Assembly: GCA_021740625.1 (NCBI GenBank)
Contig: JAIOZK010000001.1
Location: 1 to 64,000 of the forward strand
Source of the DNA: Bacteroidales bacterium
GTDB lineage: Bacteria > Bacteroidota > Bacteroidia > Bacteroidales > JAIOZK01
DNA: 64,000 bases
Direction: 5' to 3'
In this document: positions 11,513 through 60,931 of the stretch, in pieces
Position numbering within the stretch: the stretch's first letter is position 1
Layout of the letters: every line of letters starts with the position of its first letter
Program-made: the position numbers and the translations under genes
The notes under the pieces: generated by a model
What the model was told of the DNA's origin: nothing
Database searches by the model: none
Seen by the model: only the letters and a program-made list of their open reading frames with translations

Positions 11513-11520
11513 ATTCAATT

Positions 11521-14308: not shown

Positions 14309-14329
14309 GTGGGGCAAGATACAAAATAA

Positions 14330-14367
14330 AAAAAGAGACATTCAAATATTGAATGTCTCTTTTTTTA
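14330..14367. terminator. Bidirectional terminator next to tRNA-Lys
   Basis: A near-perfect inverted repeat, AAAAGAGACATTCAA and TTGAATGTCTCTTTT with a three-base loop, is flanked by A and T runs on both sides. It begins 5 nt after the 3' end of the minus-strand tRNA and would stop its transcription. Confidence 0.8.
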
Positions 14368-14371
14368 TTTG

Positions 14372-14444
14372 TGATTCGGGAGAGGCTCGAACTCTCGACC
14401 CACGGCTTAAAAGGCCGTTGCTCTACCGACTGAGCTACCGAATC
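14372..14444 (-). tRNA. tRNA-Lys (TTT anticodon)
   Basis: On the minus strand a full 73-nt cloverleaf is visible. The acceptor stem is GATTCGG/CCGAATC. The anticodon arm is ACGGC-CTTTTAA-GCCGT, giving anticodon TTT, and the T-arm has GAGAG-TTCGAGC-CTCTC. No CCA is encoded. A good promoter lies upstream and a strong terminator downstream, so it is probably transcribed alone. Confidence 0.95.
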
Positions 14445-14466
14445 ATCCGTTTTTCAAACGAGGGTG

Positions 14467-14498
14467 CAAAAGTACTCAGCTTTTTTTAAATATCCAAA
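14467..14498 (-). promoter_or_regulatory. Promoter of tRNA-Lys (TTTG-N20-TACTTTTG)
   Basis: Reading the minus strand, TTTG (14498-14495) is followed after 20 nt by TACTTTTG (14474-14467), which fits the Bacteroidetes primary sigma consensus TTTG, 19-21 nt, TAnnTTTG. The tRNA 5' end at 14444 lies 22 nt further. Confidence 0.65.
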
Positions 14499-14516
14499 AG
14501 CGGGATGGGATTTTTT

Positions 14517-30436: not shown

Positions 30437-30517
30437 TTAAATCTCCAAAAGCAGATCAAGCTTGTTTTGAAGCATTATAAATTAATGATTTGCAGAAAGA
30501 ATTTGCATGCAATTATT

Positions 30518-30525
30518 TACATTTG
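30518..30525 (+). promoter_or_regulatory. nrfH: Possible -7 element (TACATTTG) upstream of nrfH
   Basis: TACATTTG fits TAnnTTTG, 32 nt before the start at 30558. TTTG occurs 25 nt upstream of it, longer than usual, so the promoter may need an activator or the call may be wrong. Confidence 0.35.
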
Positions 30526-30557
30526 TACATAGAATTTCAGAACCGAATTACCTATTT

Positions 30558-31142
30558 ATGAAAAACCAGATTAACAAGATCATTCCGCCTGCAGGCTGGA
30601 GGGCACCCTTTGCAATCCTCACAGGTGCGATGTTTGGTTTATTGTTTTATGCGTTTTATGCCAGCCGTGCATATTCCTACCTGTCTGATGATCCCAAGAC
30701 CTGTGTTAATTGTCATATCATGGCACCCGAGTATTCCACCTGGGCGCACAGTGCTCATCGCGAAGTGACCAATTGCAACGACTGTCATGTTCCGCACGAC
30801 AATGTATTCAGAAAATATTATTTCAAAGCCATGGATGGCTTGCGTCACGCCTCCGTTTTTACCATGCGGGCCGAACCACAGGTAATATTCATCAAAGAGG
30901 CTGGTATTGAGGTTGTTCACGAGAACTGCATCCGCTGTCATGAAGAATTGATCAGCAACCACAAAGTATCTGCTGCAACAGATCAATTCACCAAAAAGTT
31001 TGAACAAAGACTTTGCTGGGATTGCCATCGTTACTCTCCGCACGGAAGGGTAAAAAGCCTTTCAAGTACGCCCTTTGCCAGGGTACCGGTACCTGAAAGC
31101 CCAGTGCCCGATTGGCTTAAGGAAAGAACAAACAAGAACTAA
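30558..31142 (+). CDS. nrfH: Cytochrome c nitrite reductase small subunit NrfH
   Basis: 194 aa from the ATG at 30558; an upstream in-frame start adds 17 unlikely residues. One N-terminal helix (FAILTGAMFGLLFYAFY) anchors it, and four CxxCH heme motifs follow (CVNCH, CNDCH, CIRCH, CWDCH), as in the NapC/NirT-family quinol dehydrogenase NrfH. It oxidises menaquinol and passes electrons to NrfA in the periplasm. The nrfA gene follows after 31 nt. Confidence 0.95.
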   Translation: MKNQINKIIPPAGWRAPFAILTGAMFGLLFYAFYASRAYSYLSDDPKTCVNCHIMAPEYSTWAHSAHREVTNCNDCHVPHDNVFRKYYFKAMDGLRHASVFTMRAEPQVIFIKEAGIEVVHENCIRCHEELISNHKVSAATDQFTKKFEQRLCWDCHRYSPHGRVKSLSSTPFARVPVPESPVPDWLKERTNKN

Positions 31143-31173
31143 TAATACAATTAATAATTAATAATATAGAAGT

Positions 31174-32682
31174 ATGGGTGATCAAAAAAGAAAATCATGG
31201 GTAAACTGGTTGTTGTTCCTTGCAACCATGGTCATTGTATTTTTACTGGGCCTCCTGGCTTCCTCCATTATGGAGCGGAGGGCAGAAGCTGTATTTGCAT
31301 ATGAACCGGTTGTGGATATTACAATGGATTATGAACCCCGGAATGAAATCTGGGGAAAGAACTATCCCCGGGAATACGAAACTTATTATCAGACATCGGA
31401 TACCTCTTTCAGGACCAAATACAACGGCAATGTGTGGATCGATATGCTGGAAGAGGATCCGCGTATGGTGGTGTTGTGGGCAGGCTATGGTTTCTCCAAG
31501 GATTACTCACAGGCTCGTGGCCATGCTTATGCCATTGAGGATATCAGAAACACCTTGCGAACGGGTGGCCCCATGAAGCCCGATGAAGGCCCCATGCCCA
31601 ATACCTGCTGGACCTGCAAAAGTCCGGATGTTCCGCGCGTGATGCAGGAAACGGGCATTGCCGAATTTTACAATGGGAAATGGGCTTCCAGGGGTGCACA
31701 GATTCACAATCCCATTGGTTGTGCCGATTGTCACGATCCGGAAAGCATGGAATTGCGGATTTCGAGGCCAGCCCTCATTGAAGCATTTGAACGGCAGGGA
31801 AAAGATATTTCCAAAGTCACCCACCAGGAGATGAGAACCCTTGTATGCGCCCAGTGTCACGTTGAGTATTATTTTAACGAAGAAAGTCCTGCTCCCGGTG
31901 TACCTTATCTCACCTTCCCCTGGGACAAAGGAACCACGCCCGAAGAAATGCTTGAATACTATAACAAGATGGAATTTGCCGACTGGACACACAAGATCAG
32001 CAAAGCCCCGATGCTCAAAGCCCAGCATCCGGGTTATGAAATATTCAAAACCAGCATTCATTATGAAAGGGGTGTATCCTGTGCTGATTGCCACATGCCT
32101 TACGTAAGCGAAGGAGGTGTTAAATACACCAACCACTGGATGACCTCTCCCCTGCGTCACGTTTCCACTTCCTGCCAGGTATGCCACAAAGAAAGCGAAT
32201 CGACATTGTTCAAGAATGTTTTCGACAAACAGGACCGTGTGATCGAGATCAGGAATAAAGCGGAAAAAGAACTTGTGAAAGCACATGTTGAAGCCGGAGC
32301 TGCCTGGAAAGCGGGAGCCAGCGAAACTGAAATGTATTCTATCTTACAGGACATCCGCGAAGCCCAATGGTACTGGGATTATGCCGCTGCAAGTCATGGC
32401 GCTTCCGCCCACGCTCCTATTGAAACCTTGAGAATACTGGGAAATTCGTTAAATGTAGCCAAAGAAGCCCGGGTGAAACTTGCCAGATTGCTTGCTTCCA
32501 AAGGGATCACAGAAGAAATACCTTATCCGGACATTTCTACAAAAGCCAAAGCGCAAGCATTTATCGGACTGCCAATGGAGAAACTCCTGGAACAAAAAAG
32601 AGAATTCCTGAGAGAGATCGTACCTGTTTGGGATGCTGAAGCTGAAGCAAGAGAAGAAACATATCCAGAATACGGTGAGTAA
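31174..32682 (+). CDS. nrfA: Ammonia-forming cytochrome c nitrite reductase NrfA
   Basis: 502 aa. An N-terminal hydrophobic segment (WLLFLATMVIVFLLGLLA) exports or anchors it. The catalytic heme motif is the special CWTCK near residue 145, and four CxxCH motifs follow (CADCH, CAQCH, CADCH, CQVCH), giving the five hemes of NrfA. It reduces nitrite to ammonium with six electrons (EC 1.7.2.2) and can also reduce NO. Together with the nar genes 13 kb away it completes dissimilatory nitrate reduction to ammonium. Confidence 0.97.
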   Translation: MGDQKRKSWVNWLLFLATMVIVFLLGLLASSIMERRAEAVFAYEPVVDITMDYEPRNEIWGKNYPREYETYYQTSDTSFRTKYNGNVWIDMLEEDPRMVVLWAGYGFSKDYSQARGHAYAIEDIRNTLRTGGPMKPDEGPMPNTCWTCKSPDVPRVMQETGIAEFYNGKWASRGAQIHNPIGCADCHDPESMELRISRPALIEAFERQGKDISKVTHQEMRTLVCAQCHVEYYFNEESPAPGVPYLTFPWDKGTTPEEMLEYYNKMEFADWTHKISKAPMLKAQHPGYEIFKTSIHYERGVSCADCHMPYVSEGGVKYTNHWMTSPLRHVSTSCQVCHKESESTLFKNVFDKQDRVIEIRNKAEKELVKAHVEAGAAWKAGASETEMYSILQDIREAQWYWDYAAASHGASAHAPIETLRILGNSLNVAKEARVKLARLLASKGITEEIPYPDISTKAKAQAFIGLPMEKLLEQKREFLREIVPVWDAEAEAREETYPEYGE

Positions 32683-43773: not shown

Positions 43774-45075
43774 TTAGTAATTAATTTTTGTCTTGAATAC
43801 TTTCATTTCGTTTTTTCGCAAAATACCTGAGCATATAAGCGAGAATACTGCCAGTACTATGAATATGATAAAGCCATTGGAATATCCTTTCACACCCTGC
43901 AGATCAACAAACAATCCCATCAGGGGTGGGATCACAAAGCCACCAAAAGCTCCGAGTCCGCCGACAATACCGGCCGCCCCGCCAACCGCTTCTTTTACGT
44001 AATGGGGTACAAGTTTAAAAACACCGGCATTGTTAACTCCCATGCCAATGGCCACAAGTATTAATCCGATCAATGCAGTGATCATATCAGCGGAAAAAGT
44101 TAACATCCCTGCGCCAAGCAGCAGGATACTGATTGCAATAAAAATAGTTTTGATGCCACCTATCCTGTCTGAAAAAATCCCGCCCGGAACACGAATGACA
44201 GATGCCAATACCGAAAACAACATGGTCAAAGCTCCTGCTGTTTGCAGATCTTTTCCAAAATATTCCTGCCAGTATGTAGGGAACCAGACCGTAAGTGCCA
44301 GGAATCCTCCAAAGGTTGTAAAATAAAGCAAAACCAATGGCCATGTTTGCCATATCCGGGCCGCTTTCTTCAATCCACTCCAGGCACCGCCGGATGGAAA
44401 AATCTCCTGGCCGTTTATTTTTGCGATTTTCCGTGCTTCCTCTCCTGAAATTTCTTGTGATCTTTTTATAATCTGAAAATAAAAGGCATTGGGTGTTATG
44501 GAAACATAAAGTATAATCCCAACGATCAAAAAAAGCAACCATACCAGATAGGTGCCGGTTAGCATCAGGGTTCCGATCAGTAAGGGTATCAGCAGGGCAA
44601 ACAAACCGGGGGCAATGTTTCCGAAACCTGCATAAGCTCCCAGGGCCCAGCCCTGTTTCTTTTGCGGGAACCAGTACGACACCTGACCAATGCCTACTGA
44701 GAAAGTAGCAACACCTGAGCCAATGAACAATGCCAGGATCAGCAAAAGGGGATAATGTGCCATATTCAGGTTTTCCTGACCTGTGGTATAAAGCAACAAT
44801 GCCAGTCCGGCCATGCCAATTGCTGACAATAGCAACAAAATGGTAAAGGGCTTTTTACCACCGGTGCTATCGACCCAGGCACCAAAGGGAATCCTCAGCA
44901 ACGAGCCCGACAATTGTGCCATGGCAACCAGCAAGCCAAGTTGCAGATTACTCATTTGCATATATTGATCAAATACCTTGGCCGTTGGTCCAAATAGTGA
45001 AACGGCGGCGAAGCCGATAAAAAATCCCAGGGTAGCGCCTGTTAGTCCTTTGTTTGGTGTTCCTTTTAGTTTCAT
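43774..45075 (-). CDS. narK: Nitrate/nitrite transporter (NarK-type MFS)
   Basis: 433 aa with about 12 helices. The pattern LGFFIGFAAVSLFGPTAKVFDQ at the start, GSLLRIPFGAWVDSTGGKKPF near residue 55, and two glycine-rich nitrate-signature segments (AYAGFGNIAPGLFALLIPLL and GGAAGIVGGLGAFGGFVIPP) mark the NarK/NasA branch. It brings nitrate into the cytoplasm for NarG or expels nitrite. It is 46 nt downstream of narI. Confidence 0.9.
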   Translation of the reverse strand: MKLKGTPNKGLTGATLGFFIGFAAVSLFGPTAKVFDQYMQMSNLQLGLLVAMAQLSGSLLRIPFGAWVDSTGGKKPFTILLLLSAIGMAGLALLLYTTGQENLNMAHYPLLLILALFIGSGVATFSVGIGQVSYWFPQKKQGWALGAYAGFGNIAPGLFALLIPLLIGTLMLTGTYLVWLLFLIVGIILYVSITPNAFYFQIIKRSQEISGEEARKIAKINGQEIFPSGGAWSGLKKAARIWQTWPLVLLYFTTFGGFLALTVWFPTYWQEYFGKDLQTAGALTMLFSVLASVIRVPGGIFSDRIGGIKTIFIAISILLLGAGMLTFSADMITALIGLILVAIGMGVNNAGVFKLVPHYVKEAVGGAAGIVGGLGAFGGFVIPPLMGLFVDLQGVKGYSNGFIIFIVLAVFSLICSGILRKNEMKVFKTKINY

Positions 45076-45121: not shown

Positions 45122-45793
45122 CTAAATACTCCTTTTATTCCAAATTACTAACTGATATCTGCGCCAGATATACGCAAGCGGCAATACCAGGAAATGCATA
45201 AACCTGGTGAACGGGATCATCCCAATCAATATGAAAGCGGAAATGATGTGAACCTTGACCATAAAGGGCATAACCGACACCGCTGCAATATCGGGATTAA
45301 ATGTAAAAATGGACCTGAGGTAAGGTGTCAACACGGATGCAAACCATGAGGACCCCCAGCGAAAGGCCAATGCGATCCAGATACCGGAAACAATTTGCAA
45401 CAGTAATATCAGGTACACAAATAAATCCATTTTATTTGTTACATACCAGAGTCTGGGAGTAGATATTCTTCTTATGATCAACATCAGTAAGCCTGATAAG
45501 GTGAGTAATGCAAAGGCAAATGCCGACAACTCCAGGATGAATAAACGAATGGGCATGCCGTTCCAGATCATCACAGCCCTTGGAAACAAAAATGCAATCA
45601 GGTGACCGAAGAATAAAAAGACAAGTCCCCAATGAAAGGGCAGGCTGCCATAAAAAAGGTTTTTCCCTTCCAGGAACTGGGAGGAAAGCGAGGAAACTTT
45701 AAACCCTTTCGACCAATAACGATAGGCCGATCCCAGTATCATAACCACCAGGACAACATAAGGCAAAACGATGAAGAGCAAGGTATTGATCAT
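45122..45793 (-). CDS. narI: Respiratory nitrate reductase gamma subunit NarI
   Basis: 223 aa with five helices. His residues in the helices (PFHWGLVFLFFGHLIAFLFP and FMVKVHIISAFILIGMIPFTRFMHFLVLP) are the diheme b ligands of NarI. It oxidises the membrane quinol and passes electrons to NarH. It starts 4 nt after narJ. Confidence 0.93.
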   Translation of the reverse strand: MINTLLFIVLPYVVLVVMILGSAYRYWSKGFKVSSLSSQFLEGKNLFYGSLPFHWGLVFLFFGHLIAFLFPRAVMIWNGMPIRLFILELSAFAFALLTLSGLLMLIIRRISTPRLWYVTNKMDLFVYLILLLQIVSGIWIALAFRWGSSWFASVLTPYLRSIFTFNPDIAAVSVMPFMVKVHIISAFILIGMIPFTRFMHFLVLPLAYIWRRYQLVIWNKRSI

Positions 45794-45797: not shown

Positions 45798-46418
45798 TTA
45801 AAGTTTTATGGATTTCTTTGATTTCTTCATTGAGCAACCGATGCAATCCAGAAAATCGGACTTAACACCGGTTTTTATTTGGTATTGCTCAAAAGGAGCT
45901 CCCTCAAAATCTTCTTCCAAAATAAACAGGAGCATTTTTAGTAAACCTTTGTAAACATTGGATTCGGAATGAAAGTTCCGGATCATCTCCCTGATCGCAG
46001 GGATCAGCAGGCTGTATGAAAACTCTCTTACAAATTCCCTCTTGCTGCTTTCGCTGATCAACATCAGGACATTGGGAAGATGATCGGGCAATTCGTTGCC
46101 CCAGCCCAGGGAGGCATTTCGGTATTCCTTTTGCAATGCAACCAGAAATTCTCCACGCATGTAATCTTCACCGAAAAGGACATATCCAATATCGAGATAG
46201 CAGAGCGCCTGTACGTCAAATGTCTTGATATAAAATTCTTTCAAGGTGTCCGTATGTTTTCCGGTTACATGATCCTTGAAGGCATCAATATAAGGTCTGA
46301 TATCCGGATAATAGATCGTGATCCCCCTGAAATGCCCCAAAGCATCCTGCAAACTGCAGGAAGGGTATTCGAAGAGTTTCGCAATGAGCTTATAATGATT
46401 GAAATTTGTCCTTTTCAT
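45798..46418 (-). CDS. narJ: Nitrate reductase assembly chaperone NarJ
   Basis: 206 aa, all helical, a member of the TorD/DmsD/NarJ chaperones: KLIAKLFEYPSCSLQDAL at the start and QALCYLDIGYVLFGEDYMRGEFL in the middle. It assists molybdenum cofactor insertion into NarG in the cytoplasm. The C-terminus has CIGCSMKK, an unusual extra CxxC. Only one base separates it from narH. Confidence 0.85.
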   Translation of the reverse strand: MKRTNFNHYKLIAKLFEYPSCSLQDALGHFRGITIYYPDIRPYIDAFKDHVTGKHTDTLKEFYIKTFDVQALCYLDIGYVLFGEDYMRGEFLVALQKEYRNASLGWGNELPDHLPNVLMLISESSKREFVREFSYSLLIPAIREMIRNFHSESNVYKGLLKMLLFILEEDFEGAPFEQYQIKTGVKSDFLDCIGCSMKKSKKSIKL

Positions 46419-46419: not shown

Positions 46420-47910
46420 TCATAATCCTCTTTTTGGTCTTTCGGTAAATCCCAGCCCGGCTTCTCCTTTGTATTCGTGTGTATCCTCCATCATTTCAAT
46501 GGCTTCTTCGCGATGTGCCGGCGGTATCACAAATCGTTCATCATACAATGGCAGTGAAGTAAGCCTGAAAATAGCATCAGCAGTTTCCGGGCTCAGTCCG
46601 GTATCTTTCAATACTTTATTCGCCTCCTTTTTATTCATGTCACCTACTGTTTTGTTTCTACGGTGCACCCTGACAGCCATCATTTTTTTCAGCACTTTTT
46701 CGATGATCTTTGTATCTCCTGCCGAAAAAAGGGAGGCAAGGTATTCCATTGGCAATCTTGATTTCTCAATGGTAGCCCAGAGTTCATCCGAAGTGGATTC
46801 GTATACATTATTCACCATGGAAGCCATTGTTGGCAACAATGGCGGAACGTAGAACAGATTGGGCAGGGTACGGAATTCAGGATGCAAGGGCAATGCAAGC
46901 TCCCATTCTTTTGCAAACTTCCATACCGGGGATTTTTGTGCCGCTTCAATAGTAGATTCAGGAATCCCTGCTTTTTTAGCTTCTTCAATGACTTCTTCAT
47001 CAAAAGGATCGAGATAAATTTCCATCTGGGCATTCACCAGGTCTTTTTCACCGGCATTGGCAGCGGCTTCAATTTTATCGGCATCATACAACATGACACC
47101 CAGGTAACGGATCCTGCCCACACAGGAATGCATGCAAGCCGGTATCTGTCCTGTTTCCAAACGTGGATAACAAAGGATACATTTTTCCGACTTGCCGGTT
47201 TTCCAGTTATAATAACTTTTTTTATATGGACATGCCGAAACACAAAAGCGCCAGCCCCGGCATTTCTTCTGGTTGATCAGCACGATGCCGTCCTCTCCCC
47301 TTTTATACATGGCCCCGGAGGGACAAGCCGCAACACAAGAAGGATTCAGGCAATGATTGCAAATACGGGGCAGGTAGAAAAATGTCATGCGTTCCAGCAT
47401 GAACAAAGCTTCCTGTTCTTCTTTCGACACATTCTTAAAATTGACATCATTGCGTGCATAATCCGGAGAACCGGAAAAGTCATCATCCCAGTTGGGACCG
47501 GCTTTTGGGGTCATCACTTCCCCGGTGATATCGGAAACCGGCATGGCCGTTGGCTGATCATCTCCTTCAGGCGCATCGAAAAGATCCTGGTAACGATACC
47601 GCCAGGGTTCGTAATAATCATCCATGGCCGGGAGCTTTGGATTGTAAAAGATATTTCCAAGACCTTTCTTTTTGCCGGCACTCTTCAACTTCGGTTTTTT
47701 CTTTGTCTTTTCCCATCCGCCGCCATATATTTCCTGGTCTTCCCACTTCGTGGGGAAACCGGTTCCTGGCTTTGTTTCCACATTGTTCCACCACATGTAT
47801 TCTGCTCCTTTGCGGTCGGTCCAGGTATTCTTGCAGGCAATGCTGCAGGTATGGCATCCGATACATTTATCAAGATGAAAAACCATGGAGATTTGGGATC
47901 GTATATTCAT
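46420..47910 (-). CDS. narH: Respiratory nitrate reductase beta subunit NarH
   Basis: 496 aa with the full Fe-S ligand sets: CIGCHTCSIACKNTW near residue 16, CNHCLNPSCVAACP, and CRGWRFCVSACP followed by CILCYPR and CMHSCVGRIRYLG. The Trp in CRGWRFC marks the 3Fe-4S cluster, as in NarH. It carries electrons from NarI to NarG in the cytoplasm. Confidence 0.95.
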   Translation of the reverse strand: MNIRSQISMVFHLDKCIGCHTCSIACKNTWTDRKGAEYMWWNNVETKPGTGFPTKWEDQEIYGGGWEKTKKKPKLKSAGKKKGLGNIFYNPKLPAMDDYYEPWRYRYQDLFDAPEGDDQPTAMPVSDITGEVMTPKAGPNWDDDFSGSPDYARNDVNFKNVSKEEQEALFMLERMTFFYLPRICNHCLNPSCVAACPSGAMYKRGEDGIVLINQKKCRGWRFCVSACPYKKSYYNWKTGKSEKCILCYPRLETGQIPACMHSCVGRIRYLGVMLYDADKIEAAANAGEKDLVNAQMEIYLDPFDEEVIEEAKKAGIPESTIEAAQKSPVWKFAKEWELALPLHPEFRTLPNLFYVPPLLPTMASMVNNVYESTSDELWATIEKSRLPMEYLASLFSAGDTKIIEKVLKKMMAVRVHRRNKTVGDMNKKEANKVLKDTGLSPETADAIFRLTSLPLYDERFVIPPAHREEAIEMMEDTHEYKGEAGLGFTERPKRGL

Positions 47911-47921: not shown

Positions 47922-50900
47922 TTAAAATTTAACTTTATCCATTTTCCTGATTACGCAATGTGTATCCCTGTTCACACCAACCGGGCCCCAGTAATTAAAA
48001 TGATAGCTGAACTGTCCGTAACCACCCATCAATAGATTGGGCTTAAAATGCAGCCTGGTAAAGCTGTTGTGCCCTCCTCCCCTTCTTTTACGAGTTTCGG
48101 ATTTGGGTGCAGCGTATGTCCTTTCGGGTGCATGATACACGATACTCACACCCTTTGGTATTCTCGCGCTCACACAGGCTCTGGTGCAATACACCCCATT
48201 GTCGTTAAAAACCTCAACCCAGTCATTGTCTTTAATACCCATTTCCGCAGCATCTTCCTCACTCAGCCAGCAGGGTTCCATGCCTCTGGAAAGTGTGAGC
48301 ATCCTCAATGTGTCACCATAAGTTGAATGGATATGCCATTTACCGTGCGGGGTCAAAACATTCAGCACCCTGGCTTTTCCTTCTGCTACAGATCTTTTTA
48401 ATTCTCCATAAACCTCTGGCGTTGGTGAAGGTTTATAGGTTGGCAAATGCTCCCCGAATTTGATATAACCTTCATGATCCAGGTAAAAATGCTGACGACC
48501 GGTAAGTGTTCTCCATGGCACCAGTCTTTCAACATTGTAGGTATAAGCAGAATACGCCCTGCCCTTATGCATCAGACCCGACCAGATGGGGGAATTATTG
48601 TACCGCCTGGGCTGTGATTGAAGGTCTTTGAAATTGACTGAATGGATATGGTTTTCATCCCCCATTTCCTGCAAACTCAGGCCGGTCTTTTTCTCGGCAT
48701 TGGCATACGCCCTCTTGCTCAGACCGGAATTTGTCAGTGAAGAGAGCTTCAGAATAGCATTGCACATTTCCTCATCCTCGTACAGGCTTGGGTATGATCT
48801 CCCTTCCAGTTGGCCAAGATGTTTTTCATCCTGCAGCATCTCTTCGTACATATCCTGGCAGTCAAATTTATTCCCGTGCGCTCCCAGACCATTTCTAACA
48901 TTCTCACCAAGGTTAATGAATTTATCATAGACCTTGGTATAGTCCCGATCTATGATCTTCATATCATGCATGGTTTTTCCGGGAACAGCTTCACACTCTC
49001 CCTTCGACCAGTCTTTGATCTCAGCCTGGCTGATTTCCCCGGCTGAGTCATGTGCAATGGGTGTATTCACCACATCCTTAAATTTGCCAGGTAAAACTTC
49101 TTTGGCCAGCTCGCTGGTCTTTTTGGCGATCTCCCTGAATATAGCCCAGTCACTCTTCGACTCCCATACCGGAGCAATCGCCTTCGATAAAGGATGTATG
49201 AATGAATGCATATCGGTTGAGTTAAGGTCATCCTTTTCATACCAGGAAGCAGCCGGCAATACAATATCGGAATACAGGGCCGAGGTATCCATGCGAAAGT
49301 TCAGATCCACAACCAGGTCCATTTTCCCCCGGGGTGCTTCATGGTGCCAGTTCACATCCTTTACCTTACCTTTGGCCGATTCTTCTGCAATGGCATTGTC
49401 GTGTGTTCCCAGGTAATGTCTTAAAAAGAATTCATGTCCTTTGGCACTCGACATGAGCGCATTCCCCCGCCAGATAAACCATATCCTGGGAAAGCTCATT
49501 TCGTCATCCGGATCTTCCACGGCATACTTCAAATCACCGGATTTAACGGATTCAATAATGTAGTCCTTTATCTCTTCTTCTGTTCTGGCACCTTTTTCCT
49601 CAGCTTCTTTTACAATCTCAAAATTGTGTTTGTTGTATTGTGGAAAGAAGGGCATCCAGCCGTTTTTCACGGATTTCACAATCAGGTCGGCAGTATGCTG
49701 TGCCGATAATTCATTATCGGGTACCGTATTGTAATCCGACTGGTTTCCGTCGTAACGCCACTGGTCGGAATGCATGTAATGCCAGATTGGTGTTTGCTGC
49801 AGACGGGCAGCTCCATGCCAGTCTTTGCCGGCCATCATCATACCCCATGAGTCCACGGGAGCCAGTTTTTCCTGCCCTACATAATGATTCATACCACCTC
49901 CCTGAACACCAACGCTGCCGGTCAGCATCAGCGCCATCGTCCCGGCCCGGTATATCAGGTTGTTATGGTACCAGTGGTTGATACCCGCCCCAATGATGAT
50001 CATGCATTTGCCTCTGGTGAGCTCGGCCGTTTTGCTCCACTCACGGGCAAATTGCTTAACGGTTTCCTTTCCGGTACCTGAATATATTTCCTGCCAGGCG
50101 GGAGTATAAGAATAATCAGGATCATCGTAACTTTCAGGGTACTCGCCTTCCAGCCCTCTGGAAACACCGTATTGTGCCATGATGAGATCATAAACGGTTG
50201 TTACTTTAATCTTACCATCTTTTGTCTTCAAATTGCGAACAGGAACCCCCCTTTTAAAAGTTTGCTTTTTCGCAAATTCAGTGAATTCAACCTGCAACAC
50301 TTCATCATGCTTATCAAGCAAGCTCAGCAGAGGATTGTATTTTTCATCGGTTTCTCCATCCCTGAATTTCATATTCCATTTTCCATCCTCCTTTCCCCAA
50401 CGATGGCCAACACTACCAGCAGGGCAGATCAATTCATTACTTTCTTCATCAAAATTCAAAAACTTCCAATCGCCATTCTCTGCATTTCCGAACTTCTTTA
50501 TCCTGTTCGCCCTGACCATCCGGCAGGGAATATATTTTCCTTTTTCTTCCTTCAGTTCTACAAGGAAAGGGCTGTCGGTATAGCGTTTGGTATAATCAAT
50601 AAAATAAGGAACTTTCTTTTCGTGATGGTACTCTTTCAGGATCACATGGCTAACGGCCATCCAGAAAGCCCCGTCCTGCCCGGCATGTATCGGTATCCAG
50701 GTGTCAGCGTATTTGGAAACCATGCTGAAGTCAGGTGAGAATACAACCGTTTTTGTACCATTATGCCTTGATTCGGAAAAGAAGTGCACATCAGGTGTAC
50801 GGGTCATGCCGAGGTTGGCCCCCATTACAGCAACGAATTTGGCGTTGTACCAGTCGGCGCTTTCGGCCACATCTGTTTGCTCGCCCCAAATCTCAGGGAA

Positions 50901-51530
50901 GGAATTGGGCAGGTCACAGTACCAATCGTAAAAACTCAGGTTCACTCCTCCCATCAATTGCAGAAAACGTGAACCGGCGGCATAACTGATCATCGACATG
51001 GCAGGAATGGGTGAAAAGCCAGTGATGCGATCAGGACCATATTTCTTGACGGTGTACATATTCGCAGCCGCAATTATTTCCAGGGCTTCATCCCAACTCA
51101 GTCTTCTGAAACCACCCTTTCCCCTGGCTTTCTGATACCGCTCTCTTTTTTCCTTGTCTTCCTGAAGACATTTCCAGGCTTCATAAGCACTGCCCTTCTC
51201 CTGTTTCAGTTTCTGATACAGATCCAGCAGGGCACCTCTTATCAATGGGTATTTAACACGAATGGGGCTGTAAAGGTACCAGGAGAATGAAATACCCCGC
51301 TGGCATCCTCTTGGTTCGTAGGGTGGCAGGGAAGATTCCAACAATGGGTAATCCAGCGCCTGGGTTTCCCAAACCACGATGCCGTCTTTCACATGAATAT
51401 TCCAACTGCATCCACCCGTACAGTTTACGCCATGTGTGCTGCGTACAACTTGATCATGATGGAAACGGTTCCTGTAAAATTCTTCCCATTGTCTGGTTTT
51501 CGGTGAAACGATGTCTTTGATCCAACTCAT
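47922..51530 (-). CDS. narG: Respiratory nitrate reductase alpha subunit NarG
   Basis: 1202 aa from the ATG at 51530; an earlier in-frame ATG would add 16 basic residues overlapping the cytochrome gene. [13 protein letters not shown] has the His and Cys ligands of the FS0 cluster. [26 protein letters not shown] carries the molybdenum Asp, and several pterin-binding segments follow. No Tat RR motif is visible at the N-terminus, so the site is probably cytoplasmic. NarG reduces nitrate to nitrite with Mo-bisMGD. Confidence 0.96.
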
Positions 51531-51540: not shown

Positions 51541-52401
51541 TTAATGAATTTCAATTTGACGATTGTAAATGGCATCATTCACACTGCCTCTTTTTCTTCT
51601 TACCCATATCAGAGCGATAATGCCGATAAAAATCATCCATAAAAAGATCCCTGTGATCACAAAATATTTCGCATTATCCCTGGGAATCTGGTAAATGGCC
51701 TCTTTCGATGAATCAGCCAGAAAAGCAGTCAGGGCATTAACTTCCTTATCTGTTAACGGATGGTTTTTGTATGAGATACTCATTTCGGGGAAGGGTGGAT
51801 TGACCAGAATTGCCTGGATTCCCGGTATACCCATATTATTATAGGAATCCGTCAGATTGCGGGCCAGCGATCCTCCGGCAATAACCGCATCGTGTTTGAT
51901 GGTATGACACGAAACACAGGATGCGCCACCATTTTCAAGCTGGCGCGTACCCTTGAAAAGGGCAAGTCCTGTTTGTACATCCGCTTTTGTATAATTGAAG
52001 GTGCTTTTCTCTCCGGGCTTGTTGGTTTGACCCTTTGTTTCCATCCCAGTATCAGAGGAGCTTTGACCGGAAATGTAATCCAGTACTTTTTCAACTTCTG
52101 AATTGTCCAGGGGCTGGTCGGGCATAGGAGTTTTGTTGTATTTTTCAAAAACTTTAACAGCTTCAGGATTCCCATCCTTTATCATTGTTTCGGAGGACTG
52201 TATAAAGCTGATCAGCCAGGTCTGACCTCTTTTACCAGTTATGCCCTTGAGGTCTGGTCCGATCAAATCCCCACTGCCAATGGTGTGGCAGGCGGCACAA
52301 TACTGATTATAAAGATCTGCTCCGTTTTGAGCTTTAGCTCCTCCTGCCATGATTAGAAAGGCAGAAAAATAAATCATGAGCGCGATATTCCTTCCTTTCA
52401 T
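51541..52401 (-). CDS. Membrane-anchored diheme cytochrome c in the nar operon
   Basis: 286 aa. A signal peptide ([16 protein letters not shown]) leads into two class I cytochrome c domains: CAACHTIG near residue 35 and CVSCHTIK near 160. Methionines in [10 protein letters not shown] and PEMSISYK may be the sixth ligands. A C-terminal helix ([22 protein letters not shown]) anchors it with a basic cytoplasmic tail. It ends 10 nt before narG. Thermus nar operons also carry a diheme cytochrome c (narC), but ours may not be homologous. It probably shuttles electrons to or from the quinol/NarI level. Confidence 0.85.
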
Positions 52402-52450: not shown

Positions 52451-52780
52451 TTATCCTTTGATCATGGTCAGTATCATTTTAAACTTTTCTACAGCACGCA
52501 GGGCATGGGGCACATTGGCCGGCATGATAATGGAATCGTTCTTTCCCAGTTCATAAGGCTTACCGTCTATAGTTATTTCCGCTTTACCATCAATCACCTG
52601 CACCAGGGCATTAAAGGGAGCGGTATGTTCGCTCAGGCCCTCATCCTTGTCGAAGGCAAATAGTGATACATTGCCTGCATCATTCTTTAACACATTTTTA
52701 CTTACAACTGAATTATCGGCATATTCGACCGATTCTTCGAATTGAAATACTTTTGATTTGTCGAATTCTTTTGATTTCAT
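52451..52780 (-). CDS. Small cupin-domain protein
   Basis: 109 aa, one cupin barrel. GLSEHTAPFNALVQVIDGKAEI is the first motif and DSIIMPANVPHAL the second, with His residues for a metal. No catalytic role is evident; such small cupins are often linked to stress or redox operons in Bacteroidetes. It lies 31 nt from the ferredoxin-like gene and 49 nt from the cytochrome gene. Confidence 0.85.
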   Translation of the reverse strand: MKSKEFDKSKVFQFEESVEYADNSVVSKNVLKNDAGNVSLFAFDKDEGLSEHTAPFNALVQVIDGKAEITIDGKPYELGKNDSIIMPANVPHALRAVEKFKMILTMIKG

Positions 52781-52811: not shown

Positions 52812-53231
52812 TCATTTGAACTTCAGTTCATACTGCCGATCTTCTTTTCCATTCAGCAAATCAGCCACATTAAAACCCAGGTCTTTCTGATTGCTTTTCA
52901 GACAGCTCACAGCCTGGTTTAAAAAGGAAAATTCACCATGATCCTGTAAATGTTTAAGATTGGCAGCAACTGTATTTCTGCCCTGCTTTACCATTTCTTT
53001 TATTACGGCCTTTTCATCATAAGATTCCGCTTCTCTCTTTTCCACTTCAATAGCTTCAATAGCATCCACAGGACATTCCCCCTGGCAAGCTCCCAGCCCA
53101 TCACACATCAGATCACTGACCAGTCGTGCTTTCCCATCAATGATCTGCAACGCACCCTCCGGGCAAGCCGGAATAAATAATCCGGAACCGTTGCACCTTT
53201 CTTCGTCTATTTTTATTATTTCCCTGATCAT
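52812..53231 (-). CDS. Ferredoxin-like protein with one degenerate 4Fe-4S site
   Basis: 139 aa. The second cluster region is intact in form (CDGLGACQGECPVDAI). In the first (CNGSGLFIPACPEGAL), relatives have CxGCGxC; here Ser and Phe replace the second and third Cys. Two single-base changes (TGC to TCC, TGT to TTT) would explain it. The C-terminal 70 residues (VIKEMVKQGRNTVAANLKHLQDHGE) are typical of this Bacteroidetes ferredoxin family. It is the first gene of the nar run, so it may feed or sense electrons in anaerobic growth. Confidence 0.8.
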   Translation of the reverse strand: MIREIIKIDEERCNGSGLFIPACPEGALQIIDGKARLVSDLMCDGLGACQGECPVDAIEAIEVEKREAESYDEKAVIKEMVKQGRNTVAANLKHLQDHGEFSFLNQAVSCLKSNQKDLGFNVADLLNGKEDRQYELKFK

Positions 53232-53456: not shown

Positions 53457-54077
53457 ATGGAAAATAAGCTGCAGGAATTAACCGAGAAGCTGTATGCCGA
53501 AGGAATTGATAAAGCCAATCAGGAAGCCGATGAAATAAAAAAGAAGGCAGAAGAACAAGCTGAAGACATTAAAAAGCAAGCAGAAAAGGAAGCCGAATCA
53601 ATCATACAAGATGCCAAAAAGAAAGCGGAAGAAATTAAAAACAATCTTGAATCTGAATTAAAGCTTTCTTCGAGTCAGGCTATTACTGCATTAAAGCAAA
53701 AGATCACCAACCTGATCACTGCCAAAGTTATAGATAAACCGGTGGAAGAAACTTTTTCTGAAAGCGAGTTCATCAAAGAAAGTGTGGAAAAAGCAATTGA
53801 GAACTGGAAGCCCGGCGAGAGAGGCACAGCCGATCTCACCATTTTACTTCCAGGAAAAACAGAAGAAAAGCTTAAATCTCATTTTCTTTCCAAAGAAAAT
53901 GAAATCCTCCAAAAAGGATTTGAAGTCAGGTTTGATGACAAGCTATCCTCAGGGTTTATGATCAAACCGGTGGAAGGAGGATTTAAGATCAACTTCACGG
54001 ATGAAGATTTCAAGAATTTCTTTAAAGCATACCTAAGGCCACGTTCCAGCGAATACCTGTACGAAGAAAAGAAATGA
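53457..54077 (+). CDS. V-type ATPase subunit E
   Basis: 206 aa. The first 85 residues form a long Ala/Glu/Lys coiled coil (KKKAEEQAEDIKKQAEKEA), and the C-terminal globular part ends SGFMIKPVEGGFKINFTDEDF, typical of the peripheral stalk subunit E. It links the V1 head to subunit I. The stop overlaps the next start by 4 nt (ATGA). Confidence 0.88.
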   Translation: MENKLQELTEKLYAEGIDKANQEADEIKKKAEEQAEDIKKQAEKEAESIIQDAKKKAEEIKNNLESELKLSSSQAITALKQKITNLITAKVIDKPVEETFSESEFIKESVEKAIENWKPGERGTADLTILLPGKTEEKLKSHFLSKENEILQKGFEVRFDDKLSSGFMIKPVEGGFKINFTDEDFKNFFKAYLRPRSSEYLYEEKK

Positions 54078-54919
54078 GAGTAAAGAATCATTATTATTGC
54101 TTAATTGCCGGATTGCCAGAGCTGATCCCCGATCAAACCAAATTATGCTTTTCCCCGGGGGAGTTCAGGGAATATTTATTCGAGGAATTAAAAGGAACGG
54201 ATCTGGAGCTTGTTAAAACACTTTATCTGCCACACGACCATAAAAATCTGCTGATCCTTTTGCAAAAAAAAGACGAACCCTTCGATACGCTTGGAAATTA
54301 CAGCAGTGAGTTTCTGGAAGAAGCTTTAAAAGAACCGGAGAAACTACCGGAATACCTGGAAAAGTTTATTCACGCTTTCAGGGACGAGTCTCCACTTCAT
54401 GAAAAACTGAGCTGGGAAAACCAGCTCACATGCGAATATTATCACCACCTTACAGGCCTTGAAAATAAATTTCTCTCGGAATATTTCGAATTCGATTGGA
54501 ATCTGAAAAACGTGATGACCGGCCTTGTGACCAGAAAACACGACCGTCCTCTTGAAGGAGAACTCATTGGCGAACATGCTCTTACAAAAGCGATCAGCAA
54601 AAGCCATGCAAGAGATTTCGGGATTGCCAATGATTTCCCAGAGGTTGAATCCCTGATCAGCATCTTTGAAAAAACCGACCTGCTTGAACGAGAGAAAGAA
54701 ATTGATTTACTGAAATGGAAACACATCGATCAATTGAATACATTCAATTATTTCACCATTGAGGTAATCCTGGGACATGTGCTCAAAACAGAGATGGTTG
54801 ACAGATGGCTGCAGCTCGACGAAGAAACCGGGCGCAAGATGTTTAATCAGCTTCTGGACGATCTGAATAACAGTTTTAAATTTCCGAAAGAATTTAATAT
54901 AAATGGAAGAAAAGGTTAG
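54074..54919 (+). CDS. DUF2764 protein (V-type ATPase subunit C-like)
   Basis: 281 aa, helical, soluble. YYCLIAGLPEL at the start and LKWKHIDQLNTFNYFTIEVILGHVLKTEMVDRWLQLDEETG near the end are characteristic of DUF2764 proteins, which sit between subunits E and A in Bacteroidetes V-ATPase operons. The position and absence of an ordinary subunit C suggest it takes that role as the central-stalk socket. Its end overlaps the subunit A start by 17 nt. Confidence 0.82.
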   Translation: MRVKNHYYCLIAGLPELIPDQTKLCFSPGEFREYLFEELKGTDLELVKTLYLPHDHKNLLILLQKKDEPFDTLGNYSSEFLEEALKEPEKLPEYLEKFIHAFRDESPLHEKLSWENQLTCEYYHHLTGLENKFLSEYFEFDWNLKNVMTGLVTRKHDRPLEGELIGEHALTKAISKSHARDFGIANDFPEVESLISIFEKTDLLEREKEIDLLKWKHIDQLNTFNYFTIEVILGHVLKTEMVDRWLQLDEETGRKMFNQLLDDLNNSFKFPKEFNINGRKG

Positions 54920-56672
54920 TACAAAAGGAAAAGTTAAATCGATCATTGCCAACCTGGTGATTGTAGAGGTGGATGGTCCGGTTTCCCAAAACGAGATTTG
55001 TTATATCAAGCTGCAAGAAACCGACCTGATGGCTGAAGTTATCAAAGTTAGCGGCAATACGGCTTATGTGCAGGTTTTTGAAAGCACCCGAAGCCTTAGC
55101 ATCAATACCGAGGTGGAATTCACCGCTCATATGCTTGAAGTAACGCTTGGTCCCGGATTGCTTTCCAAAAACTACGACGGGCTTCAAAATGACCTGAATA
55201 CGATGGAGGGCATCTTCCTGAAAAAAGGTGAGTACACCAAAGCTCTTGATGAAAGCAAAAAATGGGATTTCAAGCCGCTGGTCAAAGAGCATGATCAGGT
55301 TGAGGCAGGAAGCTGGCTTGGAGAAGTGGACGAAAACCACCAGCCCCACAGGATCATGGTGCCCTTCAAGATGCAGGGCACCTACAAAGTAAAAAGCATC
55401 AAAGGGGAAGGTGCATACACTGTGAAAGATACCATTGCCGTAATCAGTGATACGGAAGGCAATGAGTTTCCCATCACAATGACGCAAACCTGGCCTGTAA
55501 AAGTACCCATCAGAGTTTATAACAATAAGCCCCGCCCCTATCGTCTGCTCGAAACAGGTGTTCGTACCATTGACACACTGAACCCAATTACCGAAGGCGG
55601 TACCGGATTTATTCCGGGTCCTTTTGGCAGTGGAAAGACCGTATTGCAGCACGCCCTGTCGAAACAGGCCGAAGCCGACATCGTGATCGTAGCTGCATGT
55701 GGCGAACGTGCCAACGAAGTAGTTGAACTTTTTACCGAATTCCCCGAGCTGGATGACCCACGCACCGGCCGTAAGCTGATGGAGAGAACCACCATCATCG
55801 CCAATACTTCCAACATGCCTGTAGCAGCCCGTGAAGCTTCCGTATACACAGCCATGACTCTGGCTGAGTATTACCGGCAGATGGGCCTGAAAGTACTCTT
55901 GCTTGCCGACTCGACTTCCCGCTGGGCACAGGCCCTGCGCGAAATGTCGAACCGCATGGAAGAATTGCCCGGTCCCGATGCGTATCCCATGGACCTGACA
56001 GCTATCATTGCAAGCTTCTACGCACGCGCCGGATATGTTTATCTGAATAATGATAAAACCGGATCCATTACCTTTATCGGAACAGTTTCTCCCGCAGGGG
56101 GTAACCTCAAGGAACCTGTTACCGAAGCAACCAAAAAAGCTGCCCGTTGTTTTTATGCACTTTCTCAGCAACGAGCCGACAGCAAGCGTTATCCGGCCAT
56201 CGATCCCATCGATAGTTATTCAAAGTACCTGGAATATGACGAGGTAAAAGAATATATGAATGAAAACATCGATGAAAAGTGGACCGATAATATTGAAACG
56301 GTAAAAGACATCCTGATCCGTGGCAGGGAAGCATCCGAACAAATAGACATCCTGGGTGATGACGGTGTACCGATTGATTACCACATCGCTTACTGGAAAT
56401 CCGAGATCATCGATTTTGTGATCCTTCAGCAAGATGCTTTTGACGATATCGACGCTTCCACGCCCATCGACAGGCAAAAGTATATGCTTCACAAAATTCT
56501 GACAATCTGCCATACCAATTTTGAATTCGAATCTTTTGAAGACACGGCTGAATATTTCAAACGTATCATCAATGAATTGAAACAAATGAACTATTCCGAA
56601 TTTGAATCGGATAAGTTCAAAAACCATGAAGAACAACTGGAAAAAATCATTGAAGAAAGGAAAGTTGACTAA
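54903..56672 (+). CDS. atpA: V-type ATPase catalytic subunit A
   Basis: 589 aa. The Walker A loop GPFGSGKTVLQH lies near residue 240. The catalytic Glu region CGERANEVVELFTEFPEL and the Walker B LLADSTSRWAQALREMSNRM follow. An inserted domain (VEVTLGPGLLSKNYDGLQN) marks the A type rather than F-ATPase beta. It hydrolyses or makes ATP in the V1 head. Confidence 0.96.
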   Translation: MEEKVSTKGKVKSIIANLVIVEVDGPVSQNEICYIKLQETDLMAEVIKVSGNTAYVQVFESTRSLSINTEVEFTAHMLEVTLGPGLLSKNYDGLQNDLNTMEGIFLKKGEYTKALDESKKWDFKPLVKEHDQVEAGSWLGEVDENHQPHRIMVPFKMQGTYKVKSIKGEGAYTVKDTIAVISDTEGNEFPITMTQTWPVKVPIRVYNNKPRPYRLLETGVRTIDTLNPITEGGTGFIPGPFGSGKTVLQHALSKQAEADIVIVAACGERANEVVELFTEFPELDDPRTGRKLMERTTIIANTSNMPVAAREASVYTAMTLAEYYRQMGLKVLLLADSTSRWAQALREMSNRMEELPGPDAYPMDLTAIIASFYARAGYVYLNNDKTGSITFIGTVSPAGGNLKEPVTEATKKAARCFYALSQQRADSKRYPAIDPIDSYSKYLEYDEVKEYMNENIDEKWTDNIETVKDILIRGREASEQIDILGDDGVPIDYHIAYWKSEIIDFVILQQDAFDDIDASTPIDRQKYMLHKILTICHTNFEFESFEDTAEYFKRIINELKQMNYSEFESDKFKNHEEQLEKIIEERKVD

Positions 56673-58048
56673 TGGAAACACAGGCATTTCAGAAAATATA
56701 CACACGCATCACAAGCATCACCAAGGCAACCTGTTCGCTGAAAGCAGCCGGAGTCGGTTATGAAGAACTGGCAGTTATCAACGGCAAACTTGCACAGGTG
56801 GTTAAGGTCATCGGAGATGAAGTTACCCTTCAGGTTTTTGGAGGTACAGAAGGTATCCCAACAGATGCTGAGGTTGTGTTTTACGGTAAGCCTCCTTCAT
56901 TGAAAGTTAGCGATGAGCTTTCTGGCAGGTTTTTTAATTCATTCGGCCTCCCCATCGACGACGGACCCGAGGTGGAAGGCGAAGAACGTGAAATTGGTGG
57001 GCCAACAGTGAATCCGGTCAGAAGGCAGCAACCTTCTGAGCTTATCGCCACAGGCATTGCCGGTATCGACCTGAACAATACCCTGGTAAGCGGCCAGAAA
57101 ATACCTTTCTTTGCCGATCCCGACCAGCCTTACAACCAGGTGATGGCCATGGTTGCCTTGCGTGCCAAGGCAGATAAAATCATCCTGGGCGGAATGGGAC
57201 TCACCAATGATGACTATCTTTTCTTCAAAAACGTATTTGACCAGGCCGGCGCCCTCGACCGAATCGTTTCTTTTGTGAATTCAACAGAAGACCCTCCGGT
57301 AGAGCGTTTGCTTGTGCCCGATATGGCGCTGACAGCAGCCGAATATTTTGCAGTGGATAAAAACCAGGATGTTCTTGTGCTTTTGACAGATATGACCCTG
57401 TATGCTGATGCCCTTGCCATTGTCTCCAACAGGATGGATCAGATCCCGTCAAAAGATTCTATGCCGGGCTCTCTTTATAGCGACCTTGCCAGAATTTATG
57501 AAAAAGCCGTACAGTTCCCCGAAGGAGGCTCCATTACCATTGTGGCGGTGACCACACTCTCGGGTGGAGATATTACCCATTCCATCCCGGACAATACTGG
57601 CTATATTACCGAGGGTCAGTTATTCCTCAGGAAAGATACCGATATCGGTAAAGTTATCGTTGACCCCTTCAGAAGCCTTTCACGACTGAAACAACTGGTG
57701 ATCGGTAAAAAAACAAGAGAAGACCATCCCAGTGTGATGAATACTGCAGTGCGACTTTTCGCAGATGCATCCAATGCCAAAACAAAGCTTGAGAATGGTT
57801 TTGACCTGACTGACTATGATGAACGAAGTCTGGAATTCGCGAAGGAGTATTCAAGAAAGTTGCTGGCAATCGATGTGAATATTGATATCGATGAGATGCT
57901 GGACACAGGTTGGAAGCTATTCAACAAATTCTTCACCAAAGCGGAAGCAGGAATCAAGGAAAACCTGGTTGAAAAATACTGGCCTGAAGAGGAAGGTCTC
58001 GAGCAAAAGAAATCGGGCAAAGAAAAAGAAGAACCGACAGAAGCTTAA
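56672..58048 (+). CDS. atpB: V-type ATPase regulatory subunit B
   Basis: 458 aa. The fold is that of A but the P-loop is lost (SGQKIPFFADPDQPYNQV). LLTDMTLYADALAIVSNRMDQIPSKD and PGSLYSDLARIYEKA are hallmark B-subunit segments. The end is a charged tail (KKSGKEKEEPTEA). It starts on the last base of the preceding stop codon. Confidence 0.95.
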   Translation: METQAFQKIYTRITSITKATCSLKAAGVGYEELAVINGKLAQVVKVIGDEVTLQVFGGTEGIPTDAEVVFYGKPPSLKVSDELSGRFFNSFGLPIDDGPEVEGEEREIGGPTVNPVRRQQPSELIATGIAGIDLNNTLVSGQKIPFFADPDQPYNQVMAMVALRAKADKIILGGMGLTNDDYLFFKNVFDQAGALDRIVSFVNSTEDPPVERLLVPDMALTAAEYFAVDKNQDVLVLLTDMTLYADALAIVSNRMDQIPSKDSMPGSLYSDLARIYEKAVQFPEGGSITIVAVTTLSGGDITHSIPDNTGYITEGQLFLRKDTDIGKVIVDPFRSLSRLKQLVIGKKTREDHPSVMNTAVRLFADASNAKTKLENGFDLTDYDERSLEFAKEYSRKLLAIDVNIDIDEMLDTGWKLFNKFFTKAEAGIKENLVEKYWPEEEGLEQKKSGKEKEEPTEA

Positions 58049-58077
58049 TGAATTTGTATTGAAAAAGCAGATAAAGC

Positions 58078-58670
58078 GTGAAAATAAAATTCCAGTATAA
58101 CAAAACATCTTTACACCGGCTGAAGAAACAGTTGGCCATCAGGGAAAGGGCGCTACCTACCCTGAAGAACAAGGAGTCGGCCCTGCGCGTTGAGGTAAAG
58201 AAAGCCAAGGACGAGGCCGGTTATCTGGATAAACAACTCAGCGAGAAAATGCAGGCATATGAGCATATGGTGGAACTATGGAGCGAGTTTAATCCCGAAC
58301 TGGTTCACATATGTGATGTTAAAACCAGCACGAAAAAAATTGCAGGTGTAAAAACACCCATATTGGAGGATATATCCTTTAGTAAAAAATATTTCAGCAT
58401 ATTCAATAATCCCAAATGGTATCTCGATGGCATTCACATTTTGCAGGAGCTTTCCCGCATTTCCATTGAAAAGGAATTCTTTATCCGCAAAATGCAACTG
58501 CTGGATCATGCCCGGAAAAAAACCACACAAAAGGTAAACCTCTACGAAAAAGTTCAAATACCGGGATTCCAGGATGCCATCAGGAAGATCAACCGTTTTC
58601 TGGAAGATGAAGAAAATCTTTCAAAATCTTCACAGAAAATTGTAAAAAGCAGAAAGGAGGAGGCCGCCTG

Positions 58671-58671
<1 letters not shown>
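58078..58671 (+). CDS. atpD: V-type ATPase subunit D
   Basis: 197 aa from a GTG at 58078. The N-terminal coiled coil starts KIKFQYNKTSLHRLKKQLAIRERALPTLKNKESAL, typical of the rotor shaft subunit D. The C-terminal helix includes LYEKVQIPGFQDAIRKINRFLEDEENLS. No ATG is better placed. It couples rotation between head and ring. Confidence 0.9.

Positions 58672-60931
<2,260 letters not shown>

Follow-up and report, generated by a model that had tools for sequence, protein, structure and literature searches.

The respiratory nitrate reductase NarGHI is the textbook quinol-nitrate redox loop. In Thermus the enzyme has a fourth subunit, NarC, which sections of one review describe as a membrane-bound periplasmic diheme cytochrome that is required for the mature membrane-bound enzyme; loss of NarC leaves NarG soluble and immature (PMC7694296). 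The same sections report NarC-NarI contact in two-hybrid tests, interpret the Thermus data as a possible electron exit toward nitrite reductase, and call NarC absent from the nar operons of mesophiles. Excerpts of a second source state that Thermus NarG is without the NarJ-binding end and without the hairpin through which E. coli NarG touches NarI (PMC10609526). For Streptomyces Nar1, parts of a further paper propose QcrC as the donor to heme bD of NarI, together with the bcc-aa3 supercomplex, and argue that the direction from QcrC to Nar1 is energetically feasible (PMC7931247). Here we describe a nar operon of a Bacteroidales bacterium and propose, with a probability of about 0.6, that it encodes a NarCGHI enzyme in which NarI has a port for cytochrome c, probably fed by quinol:cytochrome c oxidoreductases.

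The operon lies on the minus strand of the first 64,000 nucleotides of contig JAIOZK010000001.1 (assembly GCA_021740625.1), hereafter the window. Directly before narG, narC (52401-51541) translates free of internal stops into a 286-residue diheme cytochrome c with a signal sequence, two heme domains and a C-terminal membrane anchor. The mechanical open reading frame of narG starts at 51578 and would overlap narC. We accepted the ATG at 51528-51530. It stands 32 codons ahead of HGVNC, the spacing of almost every relative, and leaves a gap of 10 nt between narC and narG. The initial annotation had described a diheme cytochrome with a signal peptide, two CxxCH motifs and a C-terminal helix 10 nt from narG; its coordinates were right, and the strand is minus. 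The type II narG (47922-51530; TIGR01580, 1449 bits), without the N-terminal tail of type I NarG, is followed by narH for the iron-sulfur subunit (46420-47910; TIGR01660, 660 bits) and by the chaperone gene narJ (45798-46418), assigned by position with a TIGR00684 match below the cut-off (41.6 bits, E 1.2e-10). Next come narI for the b-type cytochrome (45122-45793; TIGR00351, 108.5 bits), which keeps the four heme histidines and has Arg83 at the position of E. coli Lys86, and a narK-like MFS nitrate/nitrite transporter gene (43774-45075; TIGR00886, 178.5 bits, below the cut-off). Upstream of narC, on the same strand, are genes for a small cupin-domain protein (52451-52780) and then a small ferredoxin-like protein (52812-53231), both kept in a genome of the same genus (G001).

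Downstream of narK, the minus strand between 40139 and 43756 holds genes that Pfam assigns to ScdA_N/hemerythrin (RIC-like), Rrf2 regulator, DHFR, DUF438/hemerythrin/PAS and DUF1858/DUF2249 proteins. This group looks like a nitric oxide stress set, and homologues of RIC, Rrf2 and DUF438 also lie downstream of narK in a same-genus genome (L046). A V/A-type ATPase gene set (53457-60931, plus strand; three genes checked with Pfam) is divergent from the nar operon, and the nitrite ammonification pair nrfH and nrfA (30507-32682, plus strand) lies about 20 kb from it.

The hydrophobic signal sequence of NarC ends near AQ-N. Pfam recognizes Cytochrom_C at residues 24-111 (E 3.8e-14). The first heme motif, CAACH, occupies residues 35-39 (52285-52299) and the second, CVSCH, residues 162-166 (51904-51918); C35, C38 and H39, as well as C162, C165, H166 and M207, are invariant in alignments A1 and A3. 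Both motifs and the likely methionine ligands M93 and M207 are invariant across the 41 sequences of A3, which were chosen for carrying two CxxCH, and Met207 would be the axial ligand of the second domain. In the AlphaFold2 model (mean pLDDT 82, pTM 0.54), helical regions at 27-115 and 139-237 surround the heme motifs and are joined by a low-confidence linker at 117-131. The C-terminus, a hydrophobic stretch followed by a basic tail (RRKR), is modeled as one long helix at 243-271 (51589-51675), which the hydropathy of relatives also marks as transmembrane, and a short helix at 274-285 (51547-51582) that its charge places on the cytoplasmic side. Within this last helix V274, R281 and Q282 are at least 90% conserved in A3, though not in every lineage of A1. 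Judged from its sequence, NarC is most simply a membrane-anchored diheme cytochrome, and its location is predicted on that basis.

Foldseek with the NarC model returned three matches at E ≤0.001, each to one cytochrome c domain over 93-95 aligned columns; QcrC chains appeared at E 0.19-0.45 with an rmsd of 13-14, which speaks neither for nor against a tie to QcrC. The majority of rows in VIA-align cover NarC residues 25-116. The second domain aligned with SorU (Z 9.7, rmsd 2.6, 87 aligned), and the Kuenenia diheme protein Kustd1711 covered both domains (Z 8.8, rmsd 14.3, 175 aligned). Membership of NarC in the SoxX, CcoP or QcrC families was rejected, as all NCBIfam scores fell under their cut-offs.

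A tblastn search of plasmids with NarC matched 21 records, 14 of them from Thermus. The Thermus matches span NarC residues 25-247 (78% of the query) at about 30-32% identity and E 4e-17; a DNA-level plasmid search with narC gave 0 matches. Four of the Thermus plasmid loci were opened: in three of them the match is an annotated gene right before narG, and in the fourth it is unannotated and in two pieces. On the T. thermophilus HB5018 plasmid (L034, 9735-14653) an IS3-family insertion splits narG. In the reverse blastp, run among the open reading frames of the fetched loci, Thermus NarC found the NarC proteins of Bacteroidota with E-values of 1e-16 or lower, versus E ~0.2 for the ActA of our own genome, an alternative complex III (ACIII) cytochrome that we call ActA from its act neighbors. 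The parallel with the diheme cytochrome of Thermus nar operons, raised in the initial annotation, is thus one of real homology over both heme domains, with the same gene order and the same NarG branch. We are highly confident that the gene encodes NarC and that the respiratory nitrate reductase of this operon is a four-subunit NarCGHI enzyme. NarC itself is of a known kind, that of Thermus; our addition is that it is the rule in one NarG branch.

To delimit that branch we used three samples. Among 247 genomes of the order, TIGR01580 found 26 narG places in 23 genomes: 11 of type I (1857-2024 bits), 13 of type II (1430-1497 bits), and two partial ones (G071, G130) assigned to type II by similarity to the window protein. 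Upstream of narG, narC was present at 14 of the 15 type II places, the remaining one (G071) ending inside narG and hence unassessable. At 13 of these the two genes share a contig with gaps of up to ~440 nt; in G168, counted among the 14, the narC contig ends within the first 32 codons of narG. At type I places narC was upstream in 0 of 11, two of which begin at a contig edge and are unassessable. Three genomes (G041, G014, G130) have both narG types, and carry narC at the type II copy only. In the phylum sample of 395 genomes, narG was found in 24, with scores of 1440-1525 bits, and each of them has narC upstream (23 fetched loci and the window). Finally, 80 named loci, the best 80 of 138 NarC-alignment matches, were inspected; narG starts 24-207 nt downstream of narC in 78 of them, and the other two (L104, L147) end at a contig edge before narG. 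Since these loci were found through narC, the set is biased toward it and tests only its side. Their titles include Ignavibacteria, Melioribacter, Calditrichota, Krumholzibacteriia and Gemmatimonadota, and further Bdellovibrionaceae, Deltaproteobacteria and Phycisphaeraceae, with binning errors possible throughout. Cultured species are among the carriers named, such as Melioribacter roseus (L161) and Algoriphagus alkaliphilus (L106).

Linkage of narC to nar is therefore conserved among the Bacteroidota relatives, and no assessable type II operon was seen in which the two are unlinked. Chance or misannotation is ruled out, since no assessable type II locus departs from the arrangement. In a tree of 77 NarG sequences, 61 type II proteins, Thermus included (support 0.89), lie across the midpoint root from 16 type I proteins. 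The latter comprise E. coli, Cupriavidus, Paracoccus, Rhizobium, Streptomyces and 11 from the order. The labels in this tree were preset, with 52% identity to the window protein as the dividing line, and no sequence fell between 47.1% and 56.0%. NarC also occurs far from Bacteroidota, in a Phycisphaeraceae MAG (L124) and a Deltaproteobacteria MAG (L147); the NarG of L124 sits among Bacteroidota sequences, which indicates either horizontal transfer or a binning error.

The two NarG types also differ at their N-termini, type II starting about 16 residues later. Among 110 type II frames, a set that contains near-duplicates and excludes the type I copies of two both-type genomes (L035, L049, reading 48), the ATG lies 32 codons before HGVNC in 105 and 33 before it in three Thermus; of the other two, L149 reads 34 and has a second ATG at 32, and L144, with ATGs at both 48 and 32, is ambiguous. 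In 101 frames a stop is too near to leave room for a lead of 48 residues. Leads in the 11 type I frames, one of them from E. coli, are 48 (eight), 49 (E. coli), 50 and 40. Outside the HGVNC pattern stand L044 and L131, with an HGANC motif and a similar short start, and L065-L069, which are a few residues longer and without the type I tail; L038, L048, L057, L104 and L147 are cut or unmatched by the pattern. The window NarG, with a lead of 32 codons against 33 in Thermus and 49 in E. coli, is without the E. coli tail.

This difference bears on the idea that NarC is mainly an assembly or anchoring subunit that offsets the missing NarG tail, its hemes carrying little current. Type I NarG has the tail and NarC-type NarG does not, and the effect of NarC loss on Thermus NarG (PMC7694296) would fit such a role. 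So would some of the variation among relatives: the narC frame of L083 is short with a single CxxCH, and a lineage (family f131) comprising L061, L062, L063 and L070 has a NarC without part of the first heme domain, in which both CxxCH are retained. A scaffold would not need its heme motifs, M93 and M207 to be invariant, however, as they are in the 41 A3 sequences (picked for two CxxCH). We regard a mainly structural role as quite unlikely, and an electron port at NarI as the better account of NarC.

In six Bacteroidota genomes, genes for a quinol:cytochrome c oxidoreductase are located directly upstream of narC. At L041, L047/L143, L126/L129, L135 and L155 these form a co-directional four-gene module (6292-9958 in L126); it encodes an iron-sulfur protein whose start looks Tat-like, a membrane protein of the NrfD type, a monoheme cytochrome c and a 158-residue protein. 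L047 and L143 are the same genome region; L126 and L129 come from the same MAG with different sequence. That MAG, Prolixibacteraceae UBA8504, has two similar, non-identical module-narC-nar loci on two contigs, which may be two copies or mixed strains. The iron-sulfur and NrfD-type proteins of L126 resemble DsrO/DsrP and QrcC/QrcD below the cut-offs, and the NrfD protein is over its Pfam cut-off; the 158-residue protein had no match in Pfam or NCBIfam. The gene for the latter adjoins narC without the rest of the module in L044 and L131. In L039, co-directional genes for ActC (NrfD by Pfam), ActD, an ActE-like cytochrome and an ActF-like protein (11064-14794) take the same place directly upstream of narC. 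Such neighbors are rare: of 116 loci where NarC matched (94 with 4 kb or more on the upstream side), the NrfD-type profile picked out just these 8. At L038 (G168), Fe-S and cytochrome genes are divergent from narC at the contig end. ActD is absent from both module genomes tested (G003, G170) and present in 8 of the 15 NarC genomes of the order, which suggests that the module and ACIII may replace each other. Our literature search, with most subscription journals outside its scope, found neither NarC in Bacteroidota nar operons nor an NrfD module adjoining narC.

All four heme histidines are kept in 98 of 98 type II and 14 of 14 type I NarI sequences, E. coli included. At the position of E. coli Lys86, which we take to be a quinol-site residue, 88 of the 98 type II sequences carry Arg and none carries Lys; among the 14 of type I, 13 carry Lys and a Streptomyces plasmid copy carries Tyr. 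Among the papers listed by a literature search, none paired Lys86 with NarI. The pairing of Lys86 with Arg crosses a one-residue gap and is a matter of sequence alignment, with which a profile-profile alignment agrees, and the NarI set includes near-duplicates (e.g., L047/L143, L072/L161). Arg is a plausible substitute for Lys86 in the window enzyme, so its NarI may still oxidize quinol directly. The type II sequences without Arg are L041, L047, L126, L129, L143 and L155 (Trp or Gly), and L061, L062, L063 and L070 (Met, Val, Thr, Trp). The NarI from all six NrfD-module loci that include narI (four genomes; L135 ends before it) is thus without Arg, and because module NarI is monophyletic (support 1.0 in the NarI tree) the coincidence of module and Arg change counts as one event. 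The second lineage without Arg has no NrfD-type gene in its fetched flanks. Both the window NarI and that of L039, with its act genes upstream, retain Arg; in the window enzyme the port may therefore work both ways. The statement in the initial annotation that NarGHI alone takes electrons from quinol is uncertain for the type II branch.

The same intact NarI is what the outflow proposed for Thermus (PMC7694296) would call for: NarI would oxidize quinol, and at low nitrate NarC would pass the electrons to an oxidase or to a reductase of nitrite or NO, standing in for complex III. The kept heme ligands (98 of 98) and the frequent Arg (88 of 98) are compatible with this direction, but a NarI that itself fed the cytochrome would leave no need for the quinol:cytochrome c modules upstream of narC. 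The inventory of our own genome, rated 95% complete, argues in the same sense. Searches for NirS, NirK and NosZ found none there, so that the Thermus acceptors are missing, although an oxidase is present: ACIII genes and a heme-copper oxidase are on contig C24, away from narC, which has no act cluster around it, and the NrfHA pair is in the window. Contig C33 has a second oxidase-family gene, by eye of quinol NO reductase-like length and start, whose protein no NCBIfam model matched at 1e-5.

Across genomes, NosZ was over the cut-off in 10 of 46 narG genomes (10 of 38 NarC genomes and 0 of 8 with type I only), and G068 has strong NosZ matches below the cut-off. NosZ as a general partner of NarC is ruled out, as most NarC genomes are without it. 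A strong oxidase match (E below 1e-100, which leaves out weaker PF00115 matches, qNor-length ones among them) occurs in 12 of 15 NarC genomes of the order, compared with 3 of 8 type I-only genomes (Fisher p 0.07) and 4 of 20 without narG (p 0.0006). The corresponding counts for ActD are 8 of 15, 1 of 8 (p 0.09) and 1 of 20 (p 0.002). That the oxidase is commoner in NarC genomes than in those without narG agrees with outflow; the 20 controls without narG were the first listed and are non-random, and the Fisher tests ignore relatedness, so co-occurrence is weak evidence and was set aside as proof of electron direction. On balance we consider outflow unlikely.

Two further schemes seem far less probable still. 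In one, the enzyme runs backward and serves as a nitrite oxidoreductase, with NarC accepting electrons from NarI; sections of the Thermus review note a very similar gene cluster in Nitrobacter hamburgensis (PMC7694296), and part of another source mentions a membrane c-heme subunit of ~32 kDa there (PMC12300631). Our own genome instead pairs Nar with the nitrite-reducing NrfHA, which makes reversal very improbable. The other is exchange of electrons between NarC and NrfA, which the initial annotation had named as an example of another c-type carrier. Although nrfA is in the same window, ~20 kb off, it adjoins the gene of its own quinol dehydrogenase, nrfH, so that NrfA needs no link to NarC, and we saw nothing in the genome tying narC to nrfA; this partnership is equally hard to credit. 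The broader suggestion that electrons come from other c-type carriers has fared better: six genomes with oxidoreductase genes directly upstream of narC speak for it, as does the altered quinol-site residue of NarI.

NarC-like domains are also found within ACIII. The first domain of NarC is most similar to a domain of ActA (chain A of 6btm, E 4e-15; 41% identity to our own ActA). Three genomes of the order that are not in the narG list (G221, G124, G119) encode proteins of 482-486 residues with seven CxxCH, located beside an ActB homologue: L016 (862-2316, minus strand), L018 (1423-2868, plus) and L026 (1429-2886, plus). Their first two CxxCH have the NarC spacing, with 25-32% identity over most of NarC. 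The remainder is 51-56% identical to our own ActA, and the next gene is the ActB homologue (50-56%). The second NarC domain alone matched the fusions of L016 (28%, E 1e-8) and L026 (23%, E 6e-7) and gave no match at E 0.01 to that of L018. These ActA-like fusions rule out that NarC is exclusive to the narG neighborhood, and they suggest that such a diheme head can be part of ACIII.

We therefore favor NarC as an entry port to the enzyme, given the Thermus acceptors not found, the oxidoreductase genes beside narC in relatives, and the NarI quinol-site change in one clade. As we picture it, the two c-type hemes of NarC would lie in the periplasm, with the C-terminal helix anchoring the protein beside NarI and the end helix inside. 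NarC would provide a cytochrome c port to the distal b heme of NarI. Quinol would be oxidized by a separate quinol:cytochrome c oxidoreductase, which would be ACIII in this organism and, in certain relatives, a dedicated NrfD/Fe-S/cytochrome c module. From NarC, electrons would pass through the NarI hemes and the NarH iron-sulfur clusters to the NarG molybdenum and nitrate. Contact of NarC with NarI in this organism, its topology and its redox role are predicted here from sequence and from the Thermus precedent, and for the inward direction taken separately we would give even odds. A wider hypothesis, which we hold tentatively and at somewhat less than even odds, is that the type II branch of Bacteroidota and neighboring phyla is primarily cytochrome c-fed and not a quinol oxidase, ACIII or the DsrOP/Qrc-like NrfD module delivering electrons to NarC, a head shared with ACIII, with decay of the NarI quinol site in two or more lineages.

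Of the two NarG branches in the sampled Bacteroidota, Ignavibacteria included, one has NarC as a rule, and NarC is found in MAGs of Calditrichota and other phyla. If it is an entry port, how much energy these bacteria gain from nitrate respiration, and how its electrons are routed, need recalculating, and the role of Thermus NarC becomes testable in relatives that encode adjacent quinol-oxidizing partners. If the branch as a whole is cytochrome c-fed, its coupling site differs from that of the textbook E. coli redox loop.

The window enzyme shares with E. coli NarGHI the narGHJI order and the NarI heme ligands; E. coli has no NarC, a NarG lead of 49 residues against 32, and Lys86 in NarI. ActA differs from NarC in being multiheme, in being part of ACIII and, in the copies examined, in having no C-terminal anchor of the NarC type. 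QcrC of actinobacterial complex III resembles NarC in having two heme domains and a C-terminal helix, and a NarC profile matches QcrC chains at E ~1e-10, mainly through the second domain. QcrC belongs, however, to a Rieske/cytochrome b complex, whereas the neighbors of NarC are cupin, ferredoxin and nar genes, and NarC scores 25.9 bits against the NCBIfam QcrC model NF050122, under its cut-off of 200. NarC may thus work like QcrC without being a member of its family. Parts of the Streptomyces Nar1 paper likewise propose a feed by a diheme cytochrome instead of quinol (PMC7931247). There the cytochrome is borrowed from complex III, unlike NarC, and the Streptomyces copy that we examined, a plasmid one from another species, has Tyr at NarI 86 and a NarG on the type I side. 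The closest relative is NarC of the T. thermophilus narCGHJIKT operon. The two differ in that identity is 30%, that the SVNxxIxxRQ tail common in Bacteroidota NarC is not kept in Thermus, and that our own genome pairs Nar with NrfHA in place of a nirS, nirK or nosZ match. They share two homologous heme domains with two CxxCH, a C-terminal anchor, a position directly before narG, and, in the enzyme that NarC accompanies, the same NarG branch, a tail-less NarG and Arg at the Lys86 position of NarI.
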